Below are positions 7,432 through 18,991 of a stretch of 21,120 nucleotides of DNA, piece by piece (position 1 is the stretch's first letter; the number at the start of each line of letters is the position of its first letter). This DNA comes from a virus. A program made the translations under genes and the position numbers. The notes beneath the pieces were generated by a model. That model saw nothing but the letters and a program-made list of their open reading frames with translations. It was not told the DNA's origin and made no database searches. Location: IMG/VR virus record IMGVR_UViG_3300024252_000100, positions 1-21,120 of that record, one strand, 5' to 3'.

Positions 7432-8808
7432 ATGAGTTTAAATACAAACTTTTCAAAATTTGGAAAGCCTTTTCAAGAAAAAGTTTTTCAATCAATGTTG
7501 TCAGATCAACTCTGGGCTGGACAAATGATCGAGGTTGTCAATCCTGAATACTTTGATCTTAAGTATTTGTCTTTTTTATGTGGAAAATATTTTTCATACT
7601 ATAAGAAATACAAAACATTTCCAACACTTACAATTCTTATTACAATTATCAAAGAAGATTTAACTAACTCAAAAGATCACGTTTTGAGAGACCAAATTAT
7701 TGAATATCTTCATCGTATGAAAACAAATCCAGACATGGGTGATCTACAATATGTTAAAGATAAATCACTTGAATTTTGTAAAAGGCAAGCTTTTCGTGAA
7801 GCTTTAGAACAAAGTGTTGAATTAATCCAAACAGAGAAATATGAATCTGTTTTAAATATCATGAAAGAAGCAATCTCTGTAGGCATGCCAAACTCTTCAG
7901 GTCACAATTTCTTTGATGATATCGAAGCAAGATTTGTTCAAATCAACAGACAAGTCTGCCCTACTGGTTTAGATAGACTTGATGCGCAAGATATTTTAAG
8001 AGGTGGTTTAGGCAGAGGTGAACTTGGCGTTATTGCAGCTAATACAGGTGTAGGTAAATCACACTTCTTAGTTGCAATGGGATGTGCAGCTATGAGAGCT
8101 GGCAAAAATGTAATACACTATACATTCGAGCTATCAGAACATGATACTGGAAAAAGGTATGACTCTAATTTGTGTAACATTCCTTCAAATGAAATTATTG
8201 AACGTAAGAAAGAAGTCATTAATAAATATGAAGGAATGGACTTAGGTAGACTTATTATTAAAGAATACCCAAGTGGTTCTGCTTCTGTTCTTACAATAAG
8301 AAATCATATTGAAAAACTAACACTTAAAGGATTTAAACCAAGTGTAGTTATTATTGACTACGCTGATGTTATGAAGTCTACGAGAGCTTATGACTCTTTA
8401 AGACATGAATTAAAGTTGATATACACAGAATTAAGAAATCTTGCAGGTGAACTAAACATTCCAGTCTGGACAGCTTCTCAAGCAAACAAAGAATCTTCAA
8501 AGGCAGACGTTGTAGGATTAGAAAATCTAGGCGAGTCATACGCTAAAGCACAAGTTGCTGATATTGTACTTTCAATTAGCAGAAAGCCTATGGAAAAGTC
8601 TGAAGGTACTGGACGAATTTTTGTTGCTAAGAACCGTGCCGGCCGTGATGGCTTATTATTTCCTATTAATATTGATACTGCAAAATCTAAGTTTGCAATT
8701 TTAGATGAAAGCTCGTTAACATTAAATGAAGCAATATCACAAGATAATAATTCTATGAAAGAAAAATTAAGAGAAAAGTGGAAAGAGGTAAATAAAAAAG
8801 ATGATTAA
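7432..8808 (+). CDS. Replicative DNA helicase, DnaB/gp41-like
   Basis: A 458-residue hexameric RecA-fold helicase. The first ~150 residues are the helical N-terminal domain that contacts primase in this family. The motor domain shows Walker A AANTGVGKS (202-210), a catalytic Glu in YTFELSEHD (230-238), Walker B SVVIIDYAD (304-312), motif H3 WTASQANK (346-353) with Gln350, and an arginine-rich end, FVAKNRAGRDG (FVAKNR plus AGRDG), supplying the arginine finger region. The C-terminus is a charged helix (KEKLREKWKEVNKK). ATG 7432 follows AAGGA at 7416-7420. The stop overlaps the dUTPase start by 8 bases. No primase or clamp loader is in the window. T4 gp41-type is likelier than a bacterial DnaB because of the gene set around it. 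Confidence 0.88.
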   Translation: MSLNTNFSKFGKPFQEKVFQSMLSDQLWAGQMIEVVNPEYFDLKYLSFLCGKYFSYYKKYKTFPTLTILITIIKEDLTNSKDHVLRDQIIEYLHRMKTNPDMGDLQYVKDKSLEFCKRQAFREALEQSVELIQTEKYESVLNIMKEAISVGMPNSSGHNFFDDIEARFVQINRQVCPTGLDRLDAQDILRGGLGRGELGVIAANTGVGKSHFLVAMGCAAMRAGKNVIHYTFELSEHDTGKRYDSNLCNIPSNEIIERKKEVINKYEGMDLGRLIIKEYPSGSASVLTIRNHIEKLTLKGFKPSVVIIDYADVMKSTRAYDSLRHELKLIYTELRNLAGELNIPVWTASQANKESSKADVVGLENLGESYAKAQVADIVLSISRKPMEKSEGTGRIFVAKNRAGRDGLLFPINIDTAKSKFAILDESSLTLNEAISQDNNSMKEKLREKWKEVNKKDD

Positions 8809-9274
8809 GATTTATTGCAATGAAAAGTTAGATGAAGCATTAGATGACAATGATGTTAAAGATTATGTTCCTGCTTATGGGGGCGAAAGTGCGGGATTAG
8901 ACCTTTACAACTCAGGAGAAAATATTTCTGTGATGCCTTCATCTTCTGATCCTAAAGGTGTAATGATAAGCACGGGTCTTCATGTTTTTACGCCAAAAGG
9001 ATACGTTTCTCTAATAAAAGAGCGAGGATCTATTACAAAGACACCGCTAAAGTATAGAGCAGGAGTAGTTGATGAAGGATATACAGGAGAAATATTTGTT
9101 AATCTTGTAAACATTAGCAGTGAAGAGTATATTATTAAAAAAGGGCAGAAACTTCCTGTGCAAATTATAGTTGTTAAATGTGATAATGAGTATTCTGAAA
9201 TTGGAGAAAAAGAATACTTAACCCTATCCAAATTTTCTAAGAGAAGCACCGGAAAAGTAGGAAGTTCAGATTGA
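8801..9274 (+). CDS. dut: Trimeric-type dUTPase (dUTP diphosphatase)
   Basis: A 157-residue enzyme that hydrolyses dUTP to dUMP and pyrophosphate, keeping uracil out of phage DNA and feeding thymidylate synthesis. The five motifs of the trimeric family appear in order: AGLDLYN (31-37), KERGSITK (motif 2, 72-80 region), AGVVDEGYTGEIFVNLVN (around 88-105, with catalytic Asp), KKGQKLPVQIIVV (motif 4) and a C-terminal RSTGKVGSSD in place of the usual RGSGGFGSTG. Motif 2 reads ERGS where PRSS is common. The start overlaps the helicase stop by 8 bases, and the end lies 17 bases before the reductase ATG. A second dUTP-clearing enzyme of a different fold occurs at 14711-15094. Confidence 0.9.
   Translation: MIKIYCNEKLDEALDDNDVKDYVPAYGGESAGLDLYNSGENISVMPSSSDPKGVMISTGLHVFTPKGYVSLIKERGSITKTPLKYRAGVVDEGYTGEIFVNLVNISSEEYIIKKGQKLPVQIIVVKCDNEYSEIGEKEYLTLSKFSKRSTGKVGSSD
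9106..9133 (+). promoter_or_regulatory. Candidate internal promoter, TGTAAA-N16-TATATT
   Basis: Within dut, TGTAAA (9106-9111) and TATATT (9128-9133) have the standard 16-base spacer. The expected start is near 9140, about 150 bases before the reductase ATG. It is coding sequence and the -10 has one mismatch, so this is tentative. Confidence 0.35.
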
Positions 9275-13377: not shown

Positions 13378-14079
13378 ATGACAAATACACATTATCTTTA
13401 TAACGATAATATAGGAAAAGTAGAACTAGTTCAAAGTATGGGAGAAGATATAACTGTTGTAAACTCAGCAAGAGTGTCTTTTGGTGTACAAAAAGACTTG
13501 TTAGATGAAAAAGATAAGAAACTAATAAATTATCTTATTAAACATAAACATACTTCAACTTTAGAACACAATGTTGCAACTTTTAGAATTAAGGTGCCTT
13601 TGTTTGTTAGATCACAACATCATAGACATAGAACTTGGTCTTATAATGAAGTAAGTAGACGATACACAGATGCAGATCTGCAGTTTTATATCCCTACAAG
13701 TTACAGAACACAACATAATTCAAATAGACAAGCTTCTAATTCTAATGATTTTATTAACCCTCAAATGGATGTATATAATATTGAATTAGAAAGTAGACTG
13801 TGCAATGAAGCAGTATCACATCATATTGACAACTCACTATTACTCTTTGAAGATATGATTAAAAAAGGTGTAGCAAGAGAGCAAGCAAGAATGATTCTCC
13901 CCCAGAATCTATACACAGAGTACTACGCTACAGCTAATCTAAATAACATATTAAAGTTTATTGAGTTAAGAACGCATGAAGGTGCGCAATGGGAAATACA
14001 GCAGCTAGCTAATTTAATGTTAAATATAGTAGAAGAAGTTTGGCCTGTGACTGTTTCTGCATATCGTTCTAAAAACTAG
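13378..14079 (+). CDS. thyX: Flavin-dependent thymidylate synthase ThyX (canonical copy)
   Basis: A 233-residue FAD- and NADPH-dependent enzyme making dTMP from dUMP. The ThyX signature is intact: RHRTWSYNEVSRRY (83-96), with the RHR flavin triad and E91, S93 and R95 for the dUMP phosphate. The second site is also conserved (RMILPQNLYTEYYATANL, then ELRTHEGAQWEIQQLA). Length matches the family. I chose ATG 13378 because GAAAGG lies just upstream and earlier in-frame codons fall in the promoter. It would use the dUMP made by the dUTPases in this window. A second, much altered ThyX lies 1.1 kb downstream. Confidence 0.92.
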   Translation: MTNTHYLYNDNIGKVELVQSMGEDITVVNSARVSFGVQKDLLDEKDKKLINYLIKHKHTSTLEHNVATFRIKVPLFVRSQHHRHRTWSYNEVSRRYTDADLQFYIPTSYRTQHNSNRQASNSNDFINPQMDVYNIELESRLCNEAVSHHIDNSLLLFEDMIKKGVAREQARMILPQNLYTEYYATANLNNILKFIELRTHEGAQWEIQQLANLMLNIVEEVWPVTVSAYRSKN

Positions 14080-14496: not shown

Positions 14497-14727
14497 ATGA
14501 AGTTACACGATAATTCAATTGCACATATTGCTAAAATAATTCAAATGGCTATTTTATCAGGTACAGATATTGTAGATCACTTGAGAATGGTAAGATTTAA
14601 CTCTAATGAAGATGAGTTTCTTATTATTGATGAAGAATATGAAGAGATATTTAATTCTTCGATTGACAAAATGATGAAAAACATACCTGAAACAGAAGAC
14701 AATATTGAGAATGAAAAACAAGACTGA
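14497..14727 (+). CDS. Small conserved phage protein of unknown function
   Basis: A 76-residue protein starting 9 bases after the previous stop, with AAAGGA as ribosome site. The N-terminal MKLHDNSIAHIAKIIQMAIL, followed by SGTDIVDHLRMVRF, is a pattern I recall from many tailed-phage unknowns. A hydrophobic helix leads into a short beta section and an acidic end (ETEDNIENEKQD). No catalytic motif is seen. Its 3' end overlaps the next gene's ATG by 17 bases, indicating coupled translation. Confidence 0.6.
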   Translation: MKLHDNSIAHIAKIIQMAILSGTDIVDHLRMVRFNSNEDEFLIIDEEYEEIFNSSIDKMMKNIPETEDNIENEKQD

Positions 14728-15094
14728 TAAGCTTGAAAGTATATTCACTAAACGTGAATCTTTTATGAATCTTATAAAACTAAAATACCCTTCGGCATAT
14801 AATAATTGGCCTGTTGATATTTCTGATAAAGCTAGTCAAGTTATATTAAGAGAAACAGCGCTTAAAGGCGTTGAGGAGATGTTTGAAGCGCTTGGTCATC
14901 TTAAAAACTGGAAGCCGCATAGAGACACAGATCTTCCTGAGATTAATAGGGAAGAGTTTCTAGAAGAGATAGTTGATGCATTTAATTATTTCTTTTCATT
15001 AATCATCTTGATGGGCGTTGATGTTGATGAATTTTATTGTGCGTTTAACAAAAAAGATGAGATAATAAGAGATAGAATTAGTAAAAATTACTAG
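14711..15094 (+). CDS. All-alpha NTP pyrophosphatase (dimeric dUTPase / MazG superfamily)
   Basis: A 127-residue all-helical protein. Residues 48-63 (ETALKGVEEMFEALGHL) carry the first EExxE-like metal motif with E55, E56 and E59. Residues 80-95 (REEFLEEIVDAFNYFF) carry the second, with E82, E85, E86 and D89. The hydrophobic LIILMGVDVDEFYCAFNKK, then KDEIIRDRI, is the closing helix typical of dimeric dUTPases. These enzymes hydrolyse dUTP, dCTP or other NTPs to the monophosphate. With thyX upstream, dUTP or dCTP is the likely substrate; MazG-like specificity cannot be excluded. ATG 14711 lies inside the preceding gene; TTG 14705 is an alternative start. It ends just before an operator-like palindrome. 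Confidence 0.65.
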   Translation: MKNKTDKLESIFTKRESFMNLIKLKYPSAYNNWPVDISDKASQVILRETALKGVEEMFEALGHLKNWKPHRDTDLPEINREEFLEEIVDAFNYFFSLIILMGVDVDEFYCAFNKKDEIIRDRISKNY

Positions 15095-15161: not shown

Positions 15162-16121
15162 TTGCCAATTAATAATAACTTAGAACCTGTATTGTTGCCT
15201 ATGGATCTTAAATTTGGACAAGATCCTGTAACTAATTACATTAATAACTTAGAGTCACTCAACATTGAAGTTGTAGATGCGCCTACGCAAGAACAAGCAC
15301 AAAAAATTGCTTGGAATATGACTAAGGCAACTTGGGCAGATTCACCTAGCGAAACTAGATTTGAGAATGCTTCTTTCAAAGAAGCTTCAAGTAATTTGCA
15401 AGATGTTTTAAACTTTAGAGCGTTACCTACACCTATGGAGTGTTTAGGTTTTACATTTAAGATAAGTGGTATTGATACACAGACTGTTACACATCTTATT
15501 CGACATAGAGCTGGATCATTTGCTGCACAATGCACAGGCGACAGAGACCTTCGAAATGACAACATTTTAGTTCCTGAATCTGTTGAAAATTCAGACTTCC
15601 ACAAGCGTTTTGTTGAAGTAGCTGCAGCAGCAAAGCAACTCTATTCAGATATGGTTGATTCACGTGTAGTTTCTTTAATGGACGCTAGAGTTATTCTTCC
15701 TAAGTCTCTTGAAACATTTTATATTGCTAGGTTTAATCTTAAAGATTTGATTGGATTTATTAAACAGCGTCAAGATATGCAAATCCAGCCTGAAGTGGAT
15801 AATATTATGGCTACACGTATTGCGAGATTAGTTGTTGAAAGAATTCCCGAGGTTGCTTCCTGTTTAGACTTTAACAAACCTGATATGCATTATGTGAGAA
15901 CTTTTAGAGTTGAACAACCTGATGGCACATTTACGTCCAAAGGAACAAATCTTTATCATCCTGAGACTAAGAACGATTTGTTTGAATTTAACGAAAACGA
16001 TTCGATCTATCAATGTCGTCGTGAAGAGATTAACGGGAATAAATCTGGTGAGGAAAAGATATTTACAAGAATGTGGAATGAAGACGTTGAATTTATCAAT
16101 TCAGTAAAAGATCAAATTTAA
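15162..16121 (+). CDS. Divergent ThyX-family protein (second copy)
   Basis: A 319-residue protein with the ThyX fold pattern but an altered active site. VTHLIRHRAGSF (109-120) keeps the RHR flavin triad. The following block reads AAQCTGDRDLR instead of NExSxRY, so the residues that hold dUMP in normal ThyX are changed (Glu to Gln or Ala, Ser to Thr or Cys, Arg to Asp or Gly depending on alignment). DARVILPKSLETFYIARFNL (173-192) and IKQRQDMQIQPEVDN match the C-terminal ThyX helix region. An extra ~80 residues at the end (DGTFTSKGTNLYHPE) are not typical. The start is TTG 15162, backed by AAGGAG (15149-15154). It may make a different pyrimidine or use another acceptor; dTMP synthesis is covered by the canonical copy. 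Confidence 0.7.
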   Translation: MPINNNLEPVLLPMDLKFGQDPVTNYINNLESLNIEVVDAPTQEQAQKIAWNMTKATWADSPSETRFENASFKEASSNLQDVLNFRALPTPMECLGFTFKISGIDTQTVTHLIRHRAGSFAAQCTGDRDLRNDNILVPESVENSDFHKRFVEVAAAAKQLYSDMVDSRVVSLMDARVILPKSLETFYIARFNLKDLIGFIKQRQDMQIQPEVDNIMATRIARLVVERIPEVASCLDFNKPDMHYVRTFRVEQPDGTFTSKGTNLYHPETKNDLFEFNENDSIYQCRREEINGNKSGEEKIFTRMWNEDVEFINSVKDQI

Positions 16122-16164
16122 AGTAGAATTTTAGTTTTAAAACGATTAAAGAAAGAATGTTATT

Positions 16165-16629
16165 ATGGAAAAGATTATTGAGAAGAAGATTTATTTAGCT
16201 AGCGGTTGGTTTAATGATGTGCAAGAGAAAGAATTGACGCATCTAGAAAATATTTTTTATGAAAGAAAAGATTATTTTAAGTTAGCTTCGCCAAGAAGGA
16301 TTTTTATTTGTCCACCTAACGCCTCAAAAGAGGTTCAAGATGCTACGTTTAAAGGGAATTTACATCATATTAAAACAGCAGATTTTTTACTTGTTAATAC
16401 ACGTGACAAGGATATCGGGACTATTTGGGAAACTGGTTATGCATATGCATTTGATAAGCCTATTATTTATTTTTGTGCAGGCTTGCCTAAAGGCGCTAAG
16501 TTTAATCTAATGTTAGCAAGAAGTGGTATCAAAGTTTGCACTTCTTATAATGAATTAGAAGATTATCTTGATAGAGTCATTGAAAAAGGTGAACTTATAG
16601 AAGAGCCATACACAGATGCAATCGAATGA
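16165..16629 (+). CDS. Nucleoside 2-deoxyribosyltransferase-like protein
   Basis: A 154-residue Rossmann-like protein of the nucleoside 2-deoxyribosyltransferase superfamily, whose members move or remove bases on 2'-deoxyribose, including DNPH1-type deoxynucleotide hydrolases. Motifs: IYLASGWFND at 9-18 (the family's YLAGPWF), FICPP (47-51), TADFLLVNTRDKD (71-83) with Asp73, and GTIWETGYAYAFDKPII (85-101) with the candidate nucleophile Glu89. Ribosome site AAAGAAAG lies in the 43-base gap after the divergent thyX, with no separate promoter, so the two are probably cotranscribed. Substrate is unknown. Given its neighbour, a modified or unwanted pyrimidine deoxynucleotide is plausible. Confidence 0.75.
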   Translation: MEKIIEKKIYLASGWFNDVQEKELTHLENIFYERKDYFKLASPRRIFICPPNASKEVQDATFKGNLHHIKTADFLLVNTRDKDIGTIWETGYAYAFDKPIIYFCAGLPKGAKFNLMLARSGIKVCTSYNELEDYLDRVIEKGELIEEPYTDAIE

Positions 16630-17757: not shown

Positions 17758-18000
17758 ATGGAAAAGTATAGTTCATATAAGAGTGGTTTAAAAATAGGTG
17801 ACTACGTTCATTACGAATACAATTGTATTTTTACAGCTTTTGTTGAGAGAAGTTTGATTTTAGATAGAAAACATCTTTTTACAAAAGAGACTAGATGGGG
17901 AGAACGAAGTTTTTTTGAATATTCTGTATACAACAACGGGAACGTAAAAAAAATAAGAACACAAGATATGAGAATTATAAATTGTGAAAGGACAAGCTAA
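17758..18000 (+). CDS. Small SH3-like protein, member 4 of a local family
   Basis: An 80-residue protein starting two bases after the previous stop. LKIGDYVHYEYNCIF (11-25) is the clearest G-D-x-V strand of the group, followed by SLILDRKHLF, RSFFEYSVYNNGNVKKIRTQ and MRIINC. The order of strands matches the other members, with a longer insertion before the third strand. Its end overlaps the ribosome site AAAGGA of the epimerase gene. No catalytic or membrane feature is seen. Confidence 0.5.
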   Translation: MEKYSSYKSGLKIGDYVHYEYNCIFTAFVERSLILDRKHLFTKETRWGERSFFEYSVYNNGNVKKIRTQDMRIINCERTS

Positions 18001-18001
18001 A

Positions 18002-18991
18002 ATGAGAATTGCAATAACAGGTGAAAAAGGTTTTATCGCTAGCAACTTATCAAATAAAATTAATAAATTTAGTCATGAATTTGTATCATTAGATGAAAGC
18101 AAATATTCAGAAGGCTATGAAACTACTGAGAGTGGTGAAGTATGTGTATATAGTAATAGCATTGAAAAATGGTCGCAGCTTCTTTCAGACTTAGATGTTG
18201 ATGTTATTATACATAATGCTGCTGTTGTAGGAACTGATGTTGTTGCGTTAAACCCGGAGCATGCAATATCAACTAATGTGTTAGGAACTCACATTATAAC
18301 TGAGGCAGCTAATAATACAAATACAAAGATTGTGTATATAGGGACAACAGTCATATATGATACATATCTTTATCAAGAAAATGAAATCTATGAAAACAGC
18401 ACGATATATCCTCGAACAAATTATGCTGTTCAAAAGTATTCTGGAGAAATGACTGTTAAGAATAACGCAAAAAGCTGGTTAGTAGTTAGACCGTTATTTG
18501 CATACGGTGGTGAAGGAGATATGAACTCTCTTATATCAAAGTCTCTATTCTGTATACATAATAATATAAATAATTTAGATATGTTTTTAAATCCTAGAAA
18601 GATAAAGGATTATATGCATGTTGAAGATTTTTGCAGCAGTGTTATGGACTTAATCGTAAATGATATTAGTTATGAAGATTTCAACATTACAGCAGAGAAT
18701 CCTCATAACACATTAGAAATAGTTAGTCTAATTGAAGAAGTGACTGGTAAAAGTTTAGAGTCAGTTATTAAGTGGCACCCAGAAACAGATTACTTAGGGA
18801 ACCATAGATTAAGTAACGATAAATTTCTAGACGTTATAGGCAAAAGTAGATCTAGAAGTCTTAAGGAAGGAATAAGACAATCTTGGGAGTCAATAAAAGA
18901 AATGGATAAACTTAATAAGTTTAATCCACTTAAACATTTAACAGAAGCAAAAGATAAAAACATCGATTTAAAGATGTTTTTCCCTAAGTGA
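18002..18991 (+). CDS. NAD(P)-dependent sugar epimerase/dehydratase (extended SDR)
   Basis: A 329-residue extended short-chain dehydrogenase of the type that acts on nucleotide sugars. The nucleotide-binding turn is MRIAITGEKGFIAS (GxxGFIA, with Ala where Gly is usual). Then DVIIHNAAVVG (67-77), a catalytic Ser/Thr in VYIGTTVIYD (111-120), and YAVQK (Tyr141, Lys145). LVVRPLFAYGG (160-170) and DYMHVEDF fit the substrate domain. Residues after ~300 form an extra basic tail. ATG 18002 has AAAGGA at 17987-17992; a GTG at 17984 would include that site and is less likely. In phages such enzymes modify host surface sugars or supply sugars for DNA or protein decoration; no glycosyltransferase is adjacent, so the role is open. 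Confidence 0.8.
   Translation: MRIAITGEKGFIASNLSNKINKFSHEFVSLDESKYSEGYETTESGEVCVYSNSIEKWSQLLSDLDVDVIIHNAAVVGTDVVALNPEHAISTNVLGTHIITEAANNTNTKIVYIGTTVIYDTYLYQENEIYENSTIYPRTNYAVQKYSGEMTVKNNAKSWLVVRPLFAYGGEGDMNSLISKSLFCIHNNINNLDMFLNPRKIKDYMHVEDFCSSVMDLIVNDISYEDFNITAENPHNTLEIVSLIEEVTGKSLESVIKWHPETDYLGNHRLSNDKFLDVIGKSRSRSLKEGIRQSWESIKEMDKLNKFNPLKHLTEAKDKNIDLKMFFPK
18956..18981 (+). terminator. Terminator-like hairpin inside the end of the epimerase gene
   Basis: AAAAACATC (18956-18964) and GATGTTTTT (18973-18981) are perfect reverse complements with an 8-base loop, so the RNA hairpin ends in five U. It lies just before the stop codon and before a new promoter region. The A-tract and T-tract make it potentially bidirectional. 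Coding constraint (KNIDLKMFF) could explain part of it. Confidence 0.45.

Follow-up and report, generated by a model that had tools for sequence, protein, structure and literature searches.

The viral window analysed here, a linear record of 21,120 bases (a 21-kb IMG/VR fragment), was found to encode two proteins of the flavin-dependent thymidylate synthase family, the second of which (ThyX2) has an altered active site and is followed by a gene for a nucleoside 2-deoxyribosyltransferase-type protein (NDT) (Table 1). Judged from sequence, there is about an even chance that ThyX2 uses flavin to methylate or hydroxymethylate dCMP at C5, which would give rise to cytosine-modified DNA, with the canonical ThyX making dTMP. 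In the pathway that we infer, which takes in the substrate, product and one-carbon donor of ThyX2 as well as the roles of the MazG-like protein and NDT, a MazG-like NTP-pyrophosphohydrolase (NTP-PPase) would hydrolyse dCTP to dCMP, and ThyX2 would then draw on reduced flavin and a one-carbon donor to modify C5 of dCMP, most probably to 5-methyl-dCMP (or else to 5-hydroxymethyl-dCMP). Kinases would raise the modified dCMP to the triphosphate, from which the polymerase would build DNA with modified cytosine, and a 5'-deoxynucleotidase (where present) together with NDT would probably drain unmodified deoxynucleotide via the deoxynucleoside to the free base.

To our knowledge, C5 marking of dCMP building blocks has so far been found only with an enzyme family unrelated to ThyX, and neither a dCMP enzyme of the ThyX fold nor a ThyX2-NDT module was found described in searches of open-access literature (most subscription papers lie outside this scope). 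If the proposal is true, flavin chemistry would open a second way to C5-modified dCMP that does not depend on the ThyA-type dCMP enzymes, the T4 and Xp12 pathways would have a non-orthologous counterpart in marine phages, and a source of enzymes for modified cytosine nucleotides would be at hand. It would also suggest a genomic marker for phages with modified cytosine, namely an MBD4-like glycosylase combined with either a dCMP-type ThyA or ThyX2.

Table 1. Positions of the genes and active-site features of the window.
Feature	Position	Strand	Evidence
dUTPase, PF00692 type	8801..9274	+	PF00692 E 3e-10
Canonical ThyX (dTMP synthase)	13378..14079	+	TIGR02170 179.8 bits; alignment
MazG-like all-alpha NTP-pyrophosphohydrolase, directly 5' of ThyX2	14714..15094	+	phrog_12184 E 1.6e-14
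ThyX2, divergent flavin-dependent thymidylate-synthase-family protein, 319 aa, TTG start	15162..16121	+	PF02511 E 1e-19
Leu88 of ThyX2, at site of flavin/folate-stacking His53 of T. maritima ThyX	15423..15425	+	L 83/85, I 2/85
RHR motif of ThyX2 (R114-H115-R116)	15501..15509	+	R78 and R80 85/85, H79 82/85
Altered substrate-recognition loop FAAQCTGDR of ThyX2, residues 120-128, in place of ThyX Y-N-E-x-S-x-R-Y	15519..15545	+	alignments
Arg176 of ThyX2 (= ThyX Arg147), retained	15687..15689	+	85/85
Arg203 of ThyX2 (= ThyX Arg174, activates pyrimidine), retained	15768..15770	+	85/85
NDT, nucleoside 2-deoxyribosyltransferase-type, 154 aa	16165..16629	+	PF05014 E 6e-12; 6evs E 1.4e-11

The original prediction had recognised a canonical ThyX beginning at 13378, and this was borne out by a TIGR02170 score above the cut-off of 87.9 bits and by the presence of H53, N85, E86, S88, R90 and Y91 in alignments. 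One alignment of canonical ThyX proteins contained a stray one-residue row, and two other alignments with junk rows were left out of the analysis. An adenosylcobalamin-type ribonucleotide reductase is also encoded in the window, and dUMP supply is covered separately by the PF00692-type dUTPase. ThyX2 and NDT lie on the same strand with a spacing of 43 bp, which makes their co-transcription plausible. Further downstream, at 17984-18991, lies a gene for an NAD-dependent epimerase/dehydratase, which is kept 3' of NDT in 62 of 79 loci.

Loci with ThyX2 numbered 46 in a scan of viral contigs, and a profile scan yielded 118 candidates, 80 of them retained. The ThyX2 of the window scores above the Pfam cut-off for the Thy1 family and, at 55.2 bits, below the TIGR02170 cut-off that defines thyX equivalogs. 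Its AF2 model (pLDDT 81, weak in the loop region at residues 120-128) matches ThyX structures, with a TMt of 0.76 to 1o2b. The second ThyX had been expected to carry about 80 additional residues; its actual excess over the first is 86 aa, divided between N- and C-terminal extensions. These extra parts, which are not found in T. maritima ThyX (TM0449), include a conserved GTNLYxPxxKND...IYxxRREEING region. Most relatives start with ATG where the window copy has TTG.

The phylogeny called for in the original prediction recovers ThyX2 as monophyletic with a support of 100/100. As the group stands on a long branch, recent duplication of the neighbouring ThyX is ruled out as its origin. No host-derived ThyX2 gene turned up when strict patterns were run against the genomes of 84,980 prokaryote species. 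The ThyX-like matches in Pbunavirus, Onyinye, Luteibacter, Aeromonas and Ss1 phages were rejected as orthologues, since they keep Arg90 and fall outside ThyX2. A phage ThyX-like group which lacks His53 and Tyr91 and has Arg90 is represented by L053 (Victoria, a Pbunavirus), L052 (Onyinye), L054, L055 and L056.

When compared with T. maritima ThyX (TM0449; PF02511/TIGR02170), ThyX2 has the fold, the RHR motif and the equivalents of Arg147, Arg174 and Gln180 in common but is without His53, Asn85, Glu86, Arg90 and Tyr91, and falls under the equivalog cut-off. The T. maritima reference residues relied on here agree with the PDB chain. Retention of the RHR triad and replacement of the dUMP-binding block had both been predicted, and both are evident: the triad is found as R114-H115-R116, and YNEVSRRYTDAD of the first copy aligns with FAAQCTGDRDLR of the second. 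Over 85 ThyX2 copies, the equivalents of R78, R80, R147, R174, E58 and Q180 are unchanged, and His53, Arg90 and Tyr91 are missing from all 85. The sequence FAAQCTGDRD is invariant across 35 aligned marine homologues. The register of this loop is ambiguous by one residue. In the ungapped register, Gly occupies the position of R90 and Asp that of Y91; with a one-residue insertion, S88 is matched by Thr or Ser, R90 by an invariant Asp and Y91 by Arg or Lys, and the sequence SADCSGDK in the ThyX2 of locus L202 favours this second register. R90 and Y91 are lost under both.

H53 is hydrogen-bonded to N85 and Y91 in reduced T. maritima ThyX, and in the ternary complex it lies stacked against folate (PMC11940539). 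Mutants of ThyX R90 and Y91 are slow in the methylene step, and Arg174 is the residue which activates the pyrimidine (PMC8316439). In PolB, a ThyX homologue, the equivalent of Arg90 contacts both uracil O4 and the phosphate (PMC5003785). As read from the alignments, the residues of ThyX2 that correspond to reading of the uracil edge and to carbon transfer have changed together, and the arginine that activates the pyrimidine has stayed, as has the RHR motif. This joint change with retention of the RHR motif and activating arginine corresponds to a substrate switch and not to decay, and loss of the O4-reading Arg90 fits a 4-amino pyrimidine. If the insertion register is accepted, the change of R90 to Asp would be comparable to the Asn177-to-Asp change which switches ThyA to dCMP (PMC8670742). 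A precedent for a ThyX fold with a changed nucleotide substrate is provided by PolB, the UMP/dUMP C5-methylase of polyoxin biosynthesis (PMC5003785). ThyX2 has His at the Gln75 position, equivalent by counting to PolB His83; however, the recognition-peptide residues Glu94, Ser96, Arg98 and Tyr99 are kept in PolB and not in ThyX2.

The partner protein had been placed in the deoxyribosyltransferase/DNPH1 superfamily; its assignment as an NDT stands (Table 1), but the DNPH1-like part of that claim does not. The window NDT retains Y10, D73, D83, E89 and N114 (corresponding to Y7, D72, D92, E98 and N123 of LlNDT), of which all are invariant across 26 NDT homologues except D73, which is nearly so. 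Its AF2 model (pLDDT 91) has BpNDT (6evs) as best fold match, and BpNDT is also the closest match by sequence. The phage NDT shares catalytic and 5'-hydroxyl-binding residues with LlNDT and BpNDT and differs from them in belonging to a family linked to ThyX2. Enzymes of the nucleotide type are marked by a missing 5'-OH-binding Asp/Asn (DmtZ study, PMC12884076). Because these Asp and Asn residues are retained, the partner is taken to be a nucleoside-type enzyme, and its identification as a DNPH1-like nucleotide sanitiser or DNPH1-MilB nucleotide N-hydrolase is ruled out.

Of the 77 marine viral loci, 76 have NDT 3' of ThyX2 and one is truncated by the contig edge; NDT follows immediately in 65 of the 77, with a median gap of 39.5 bp. 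The pair recurs in the lineage of Geobacillus phage GR1, whose ThyX2 is UDY80709, and the suggestion that thyX2 and NDT might fail to co-occur in relatives can be set aside. Given this linkage and the invariant loop sequence, neither the altered loop nor the pairing is attributed to chance. A putative MazG-like gene, as the dNTP pyrophosphohydrolase expected of pre-replicative cytosine modification, is situated 5' of ThyX2 in 63 of the 64 loci with enough upstream sequence, and in 41 of these 64 a fusion of MazG-like and NT5C-type 5'-deoxynucleotidase domains is also encoded 5' of ThyX2. No such fusion adjoins ThyX2 in the window, and PDB sequence searches with the MazG-like and MazG-NT5C proteins gave no match. 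An Fpg/Nei-type DNA glycosylase is kept near the ThyX2-NDT pair at L061 (3226-4023) and at 41 other loci.

GR1 and three long marine contigs have only a handful of proteins in common, including ThyX2, NDT, DNA polymerase III and ribonucleotide reductase subunits. A YfbR-type 5'-deoxynucleotidase is encoded close to NDT in GR1 and its relatives, and locus L202 has the contiguous order NDT, YfbR, ThyX2. The usual module is hence composed of an NTP-pyrophosphohydrolase, often a 5'-deoxynucleotidase (of either the NT5C or the YfbR fold), NDT and ThyX2. As two unrelated nucleotidase folds adjoin the same ThyX2-NDT pair, a deoxynucleoside intermediate is pointed to. The original prediction of a modified-pyrimidine pathway is in part supported, by inference from the near-invariant ThyX2-NDT linkage, the NTP-PPase and the frequent 5'-deoxynucleotidase, apart from the DNPH1-like role given to the partner. 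The ThyX2 proposal is directly testable on one cultured phage, GR1. A GR1 gene annotated as a glycosyltransferase, with no Pfam match, lies between NDT and ThyX2 (L003, 4552-5931).

Enzymes of the MBD4 class repair T:G mispairs arising from deaminated 5-methylcytosine. An MBD4-type G:T thymine glycosylase was detected in 12 of 31 ThyX2 records, with several copies 3-5 kb from ThyX2, and ThyX2 was detected in 15 of 19 viral contigs with such a glycosylase, these phages being related within groups and representing few independent events and not independent samples. Three of the four MBD4 contigs without ThyX2 end at most 1.7 kb from the MBD4 gene; the fourth (G037) has no ThyX2 in 5 kb of further sequence. 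The glycosylase is missing from several long ThyX2 contigs (e.g., G025 at 236 kb) and from the window's own sub-clade, and because of the latter the assignment of cytosine to the window is one transferred within the family. Copies of the phage glycosylase include L043:2009-2431 (E 3e-50 to mammalian MBD4), L113:3602-4048 and L117:5020-5436.

Among isolated phages (INPHARED), the MBD4-type glycosylase was found in eight records representing five distinct phages, all of which carry a PF00303 ThyA. Asp occupies position 177 of ThyA in the four whose sequence was read; the fifth ThyA, that of DoCa6, was identified through its operon, which is the AXL1 operon at 96% identity. The AXL1-group operon consists of MBD4, NTP-PPase, ThyA, dCMP deaminase and DHFR, and MBD4 stands beside an NTP-PPase, a ThyA-type protein and a dCMP deaminase in AXL1 and Donnerlittchen (by annotation) and in YB23 (by position). 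In alignments, the ThyA of these three phages has GLPYD against the GVPFN of thymidylate synthases. Cyanophage S-TIM54 encodes an Asp177 ThyA (GVPLD) besides a canonical ThyX, and for this reason it was dismissed as an example of an MBD4 phage without a cytosine enzyme. From these sequences, the Asp177 ThyA-type proteins of AXL1, Donnerlittchen, YB23 and S-TIM54 are probably dCMP enzymes. The Asp-bearing proteins are annotated as thymidylate synthase or left unnamed in L186:11914-14576 (AXL1), L187 (Donnerlittchen), L188 (YB23) and L203/L205 (S-TIM54).

Xp12, a close relative of AXL1, has 5-methylcytosine in place of all cytosine and carries the same glycosylase (PMC9206674). The same pre-replication C5 modification of dCMP is proposed for ThyX2 as for the phages with dCMP-type ThyA and MBD4 (the AXL1/Xp12 group and S-TIM54) and for the dCMP hydroxymethylase of T4. 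By analogy, the MBD4 glycosylase and the parallel with dCMP-type ThyA point to cytosine as the modified base. As phage MBD4 accompanies dCMP modification, ThyX2 is the best candidate for that slot in the phages that carry it. The AXL1-group ThyA is accompanied by an NTP-PPase, a dCMP deaminase and an MBD4-type glycosylase; in contrast to ThyX2, its fold is that of ThyA and not ThyX, and its operon has DHFR and lacks NDT.

A ThyA/dCMP-hydroxymethylase (PF00303) was absent from all 20 of the ThyX2 records searched, and the dCMP slot of these phages would for that reason otherwise be empty. A dCMP deaminase was present in 16 of 20, and no DHFR above cut-off was found among the ThyX2 records tested. 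Most ThyX2 records have the second, altered ThyX beside a canonical one: with the Thy1 profile, two Thy1 proteins were found in 20 of 27 distinct IMG/VR records, one long and of the ThyX2 type, the other shorter and higher-scoring. ThyX2 occurs alone in the remaining 7 of 27, on contigs of 16-141 kb, and in the complete GR1 genome; the ThyX2-only contigs (G010, G011 and the like) may be fragments.

Both ThyX2 and NDT come from nucleotide-supply families, of which phages often have extra gene copies, so that ThyX2 might simply be an additional dTMP synthase of low grade, with NDT serving in salvage. This reading appears quite improbable, as both ThyX types are kept in most records, the catalytic loop is replaced in a coordinated and invariant way, ThyX2 scores under the TIGR02170 equivalog cut-off, and ThyX2 and NDT are strictly co-inherited across lineages. 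It is also improbable that dUMP is the substrate of ThyX2, which might then act as a hydroxymethyl-dUMP synthase and lead to thymine-modified DNA, with NDT clearing dT or dU. The fold and Arg174 are indeed those of a uracil enzyme, and for the thymine-modified phage SP-15 a likewise divergent Thy1 protein, gp130, has been put forward as hydroxymethyl-dUMP synthase (PMC5977210). However, Arg90, the uracil O4 contact, is lost in 85 of 85 ThyX2 copies but kept in the divergent phage ThyX-like proteins examined, including that of LIS04, and the association with MBD4 is an indication of modified cytosine.

The weakest part of the dCMP proposal is the uncertain role of NDT, an enzyme for which the pathway has no obvious need: AXL1-type operons lack it. 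Its being the most constant partner of ThyX2, often with a 5'-deoxynucleotidase (NT5C or YfbR), and the seemingly conserved deoxynucleoside intermediate would be accounted for if nucleotidase and NDT freed 2-deoxyribose, and if the flavin were loaded with the open-chain sugar aldehyde, or with something made from it, in place of methylene-folate and passed it to C5 of the pyrimidine as a carbon-linked hydroxyalkyl chain. We regard this as unlikely. It agrees with the absence of the folate-stacking His53 from ThyX2 and with the loading of free formaldehyde on ThyX flavin (PMC8316439). It would also suit Listeria phage LIS04, filed under the species Thornevirus SP15, in which NDT is close to a divergent ThyX; SP-15 DNA contains 5-(4,5-dihydroxypentyl)uracil (PMC5977210), which ribose label enters according to the title of a 1978 paper cited there. 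SP-15-type phages (LIS04, Thornevirus SP15) resemble the ThyX2 phages in combining NDT with a ThyX-like protein that lacks both His53 and Tyr91, and are filed under a species whose DNA is hypermodified. Against this, Arg90 is still present in the LIS04 protein, which is no orthologue of ThyX2, the product known from SP-15 derives from uracil, and other phage ThyX-like proteins without His53 are also without an annotated NDT nearby. MBD4, moreover, is known for methyl- and hydroxymethyl-type products. The arrangement in LIS04, filed under the same species as thymine-modified SP-15, points to a different logic from that of the dCMP pathway. It is doubtful that a new hypermodification logic exists in which a ThyX-fold enzyme without its folate-stacking residue adds a deoxyribose-derived aldehyde to C5 (of cytosine in ThyX2 phages, of uracil in SP-15-type phages) to give carbon-linked polyol bases.

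NDT genes close to those of very divergent ThyX-like proteins were observed in Listeria phage LIS04 (L195:9549-12201) and Streptococcus phage GXN1 (L190:6001-8353), the latter with a YfbR-type 5'-deoxynucleotidase between NDT and the ThyX-like gene. Runs of several ORFs of one cluster were found inserted between the conserved genes at L060 (from 3113 onward), L061, L079 and L088.
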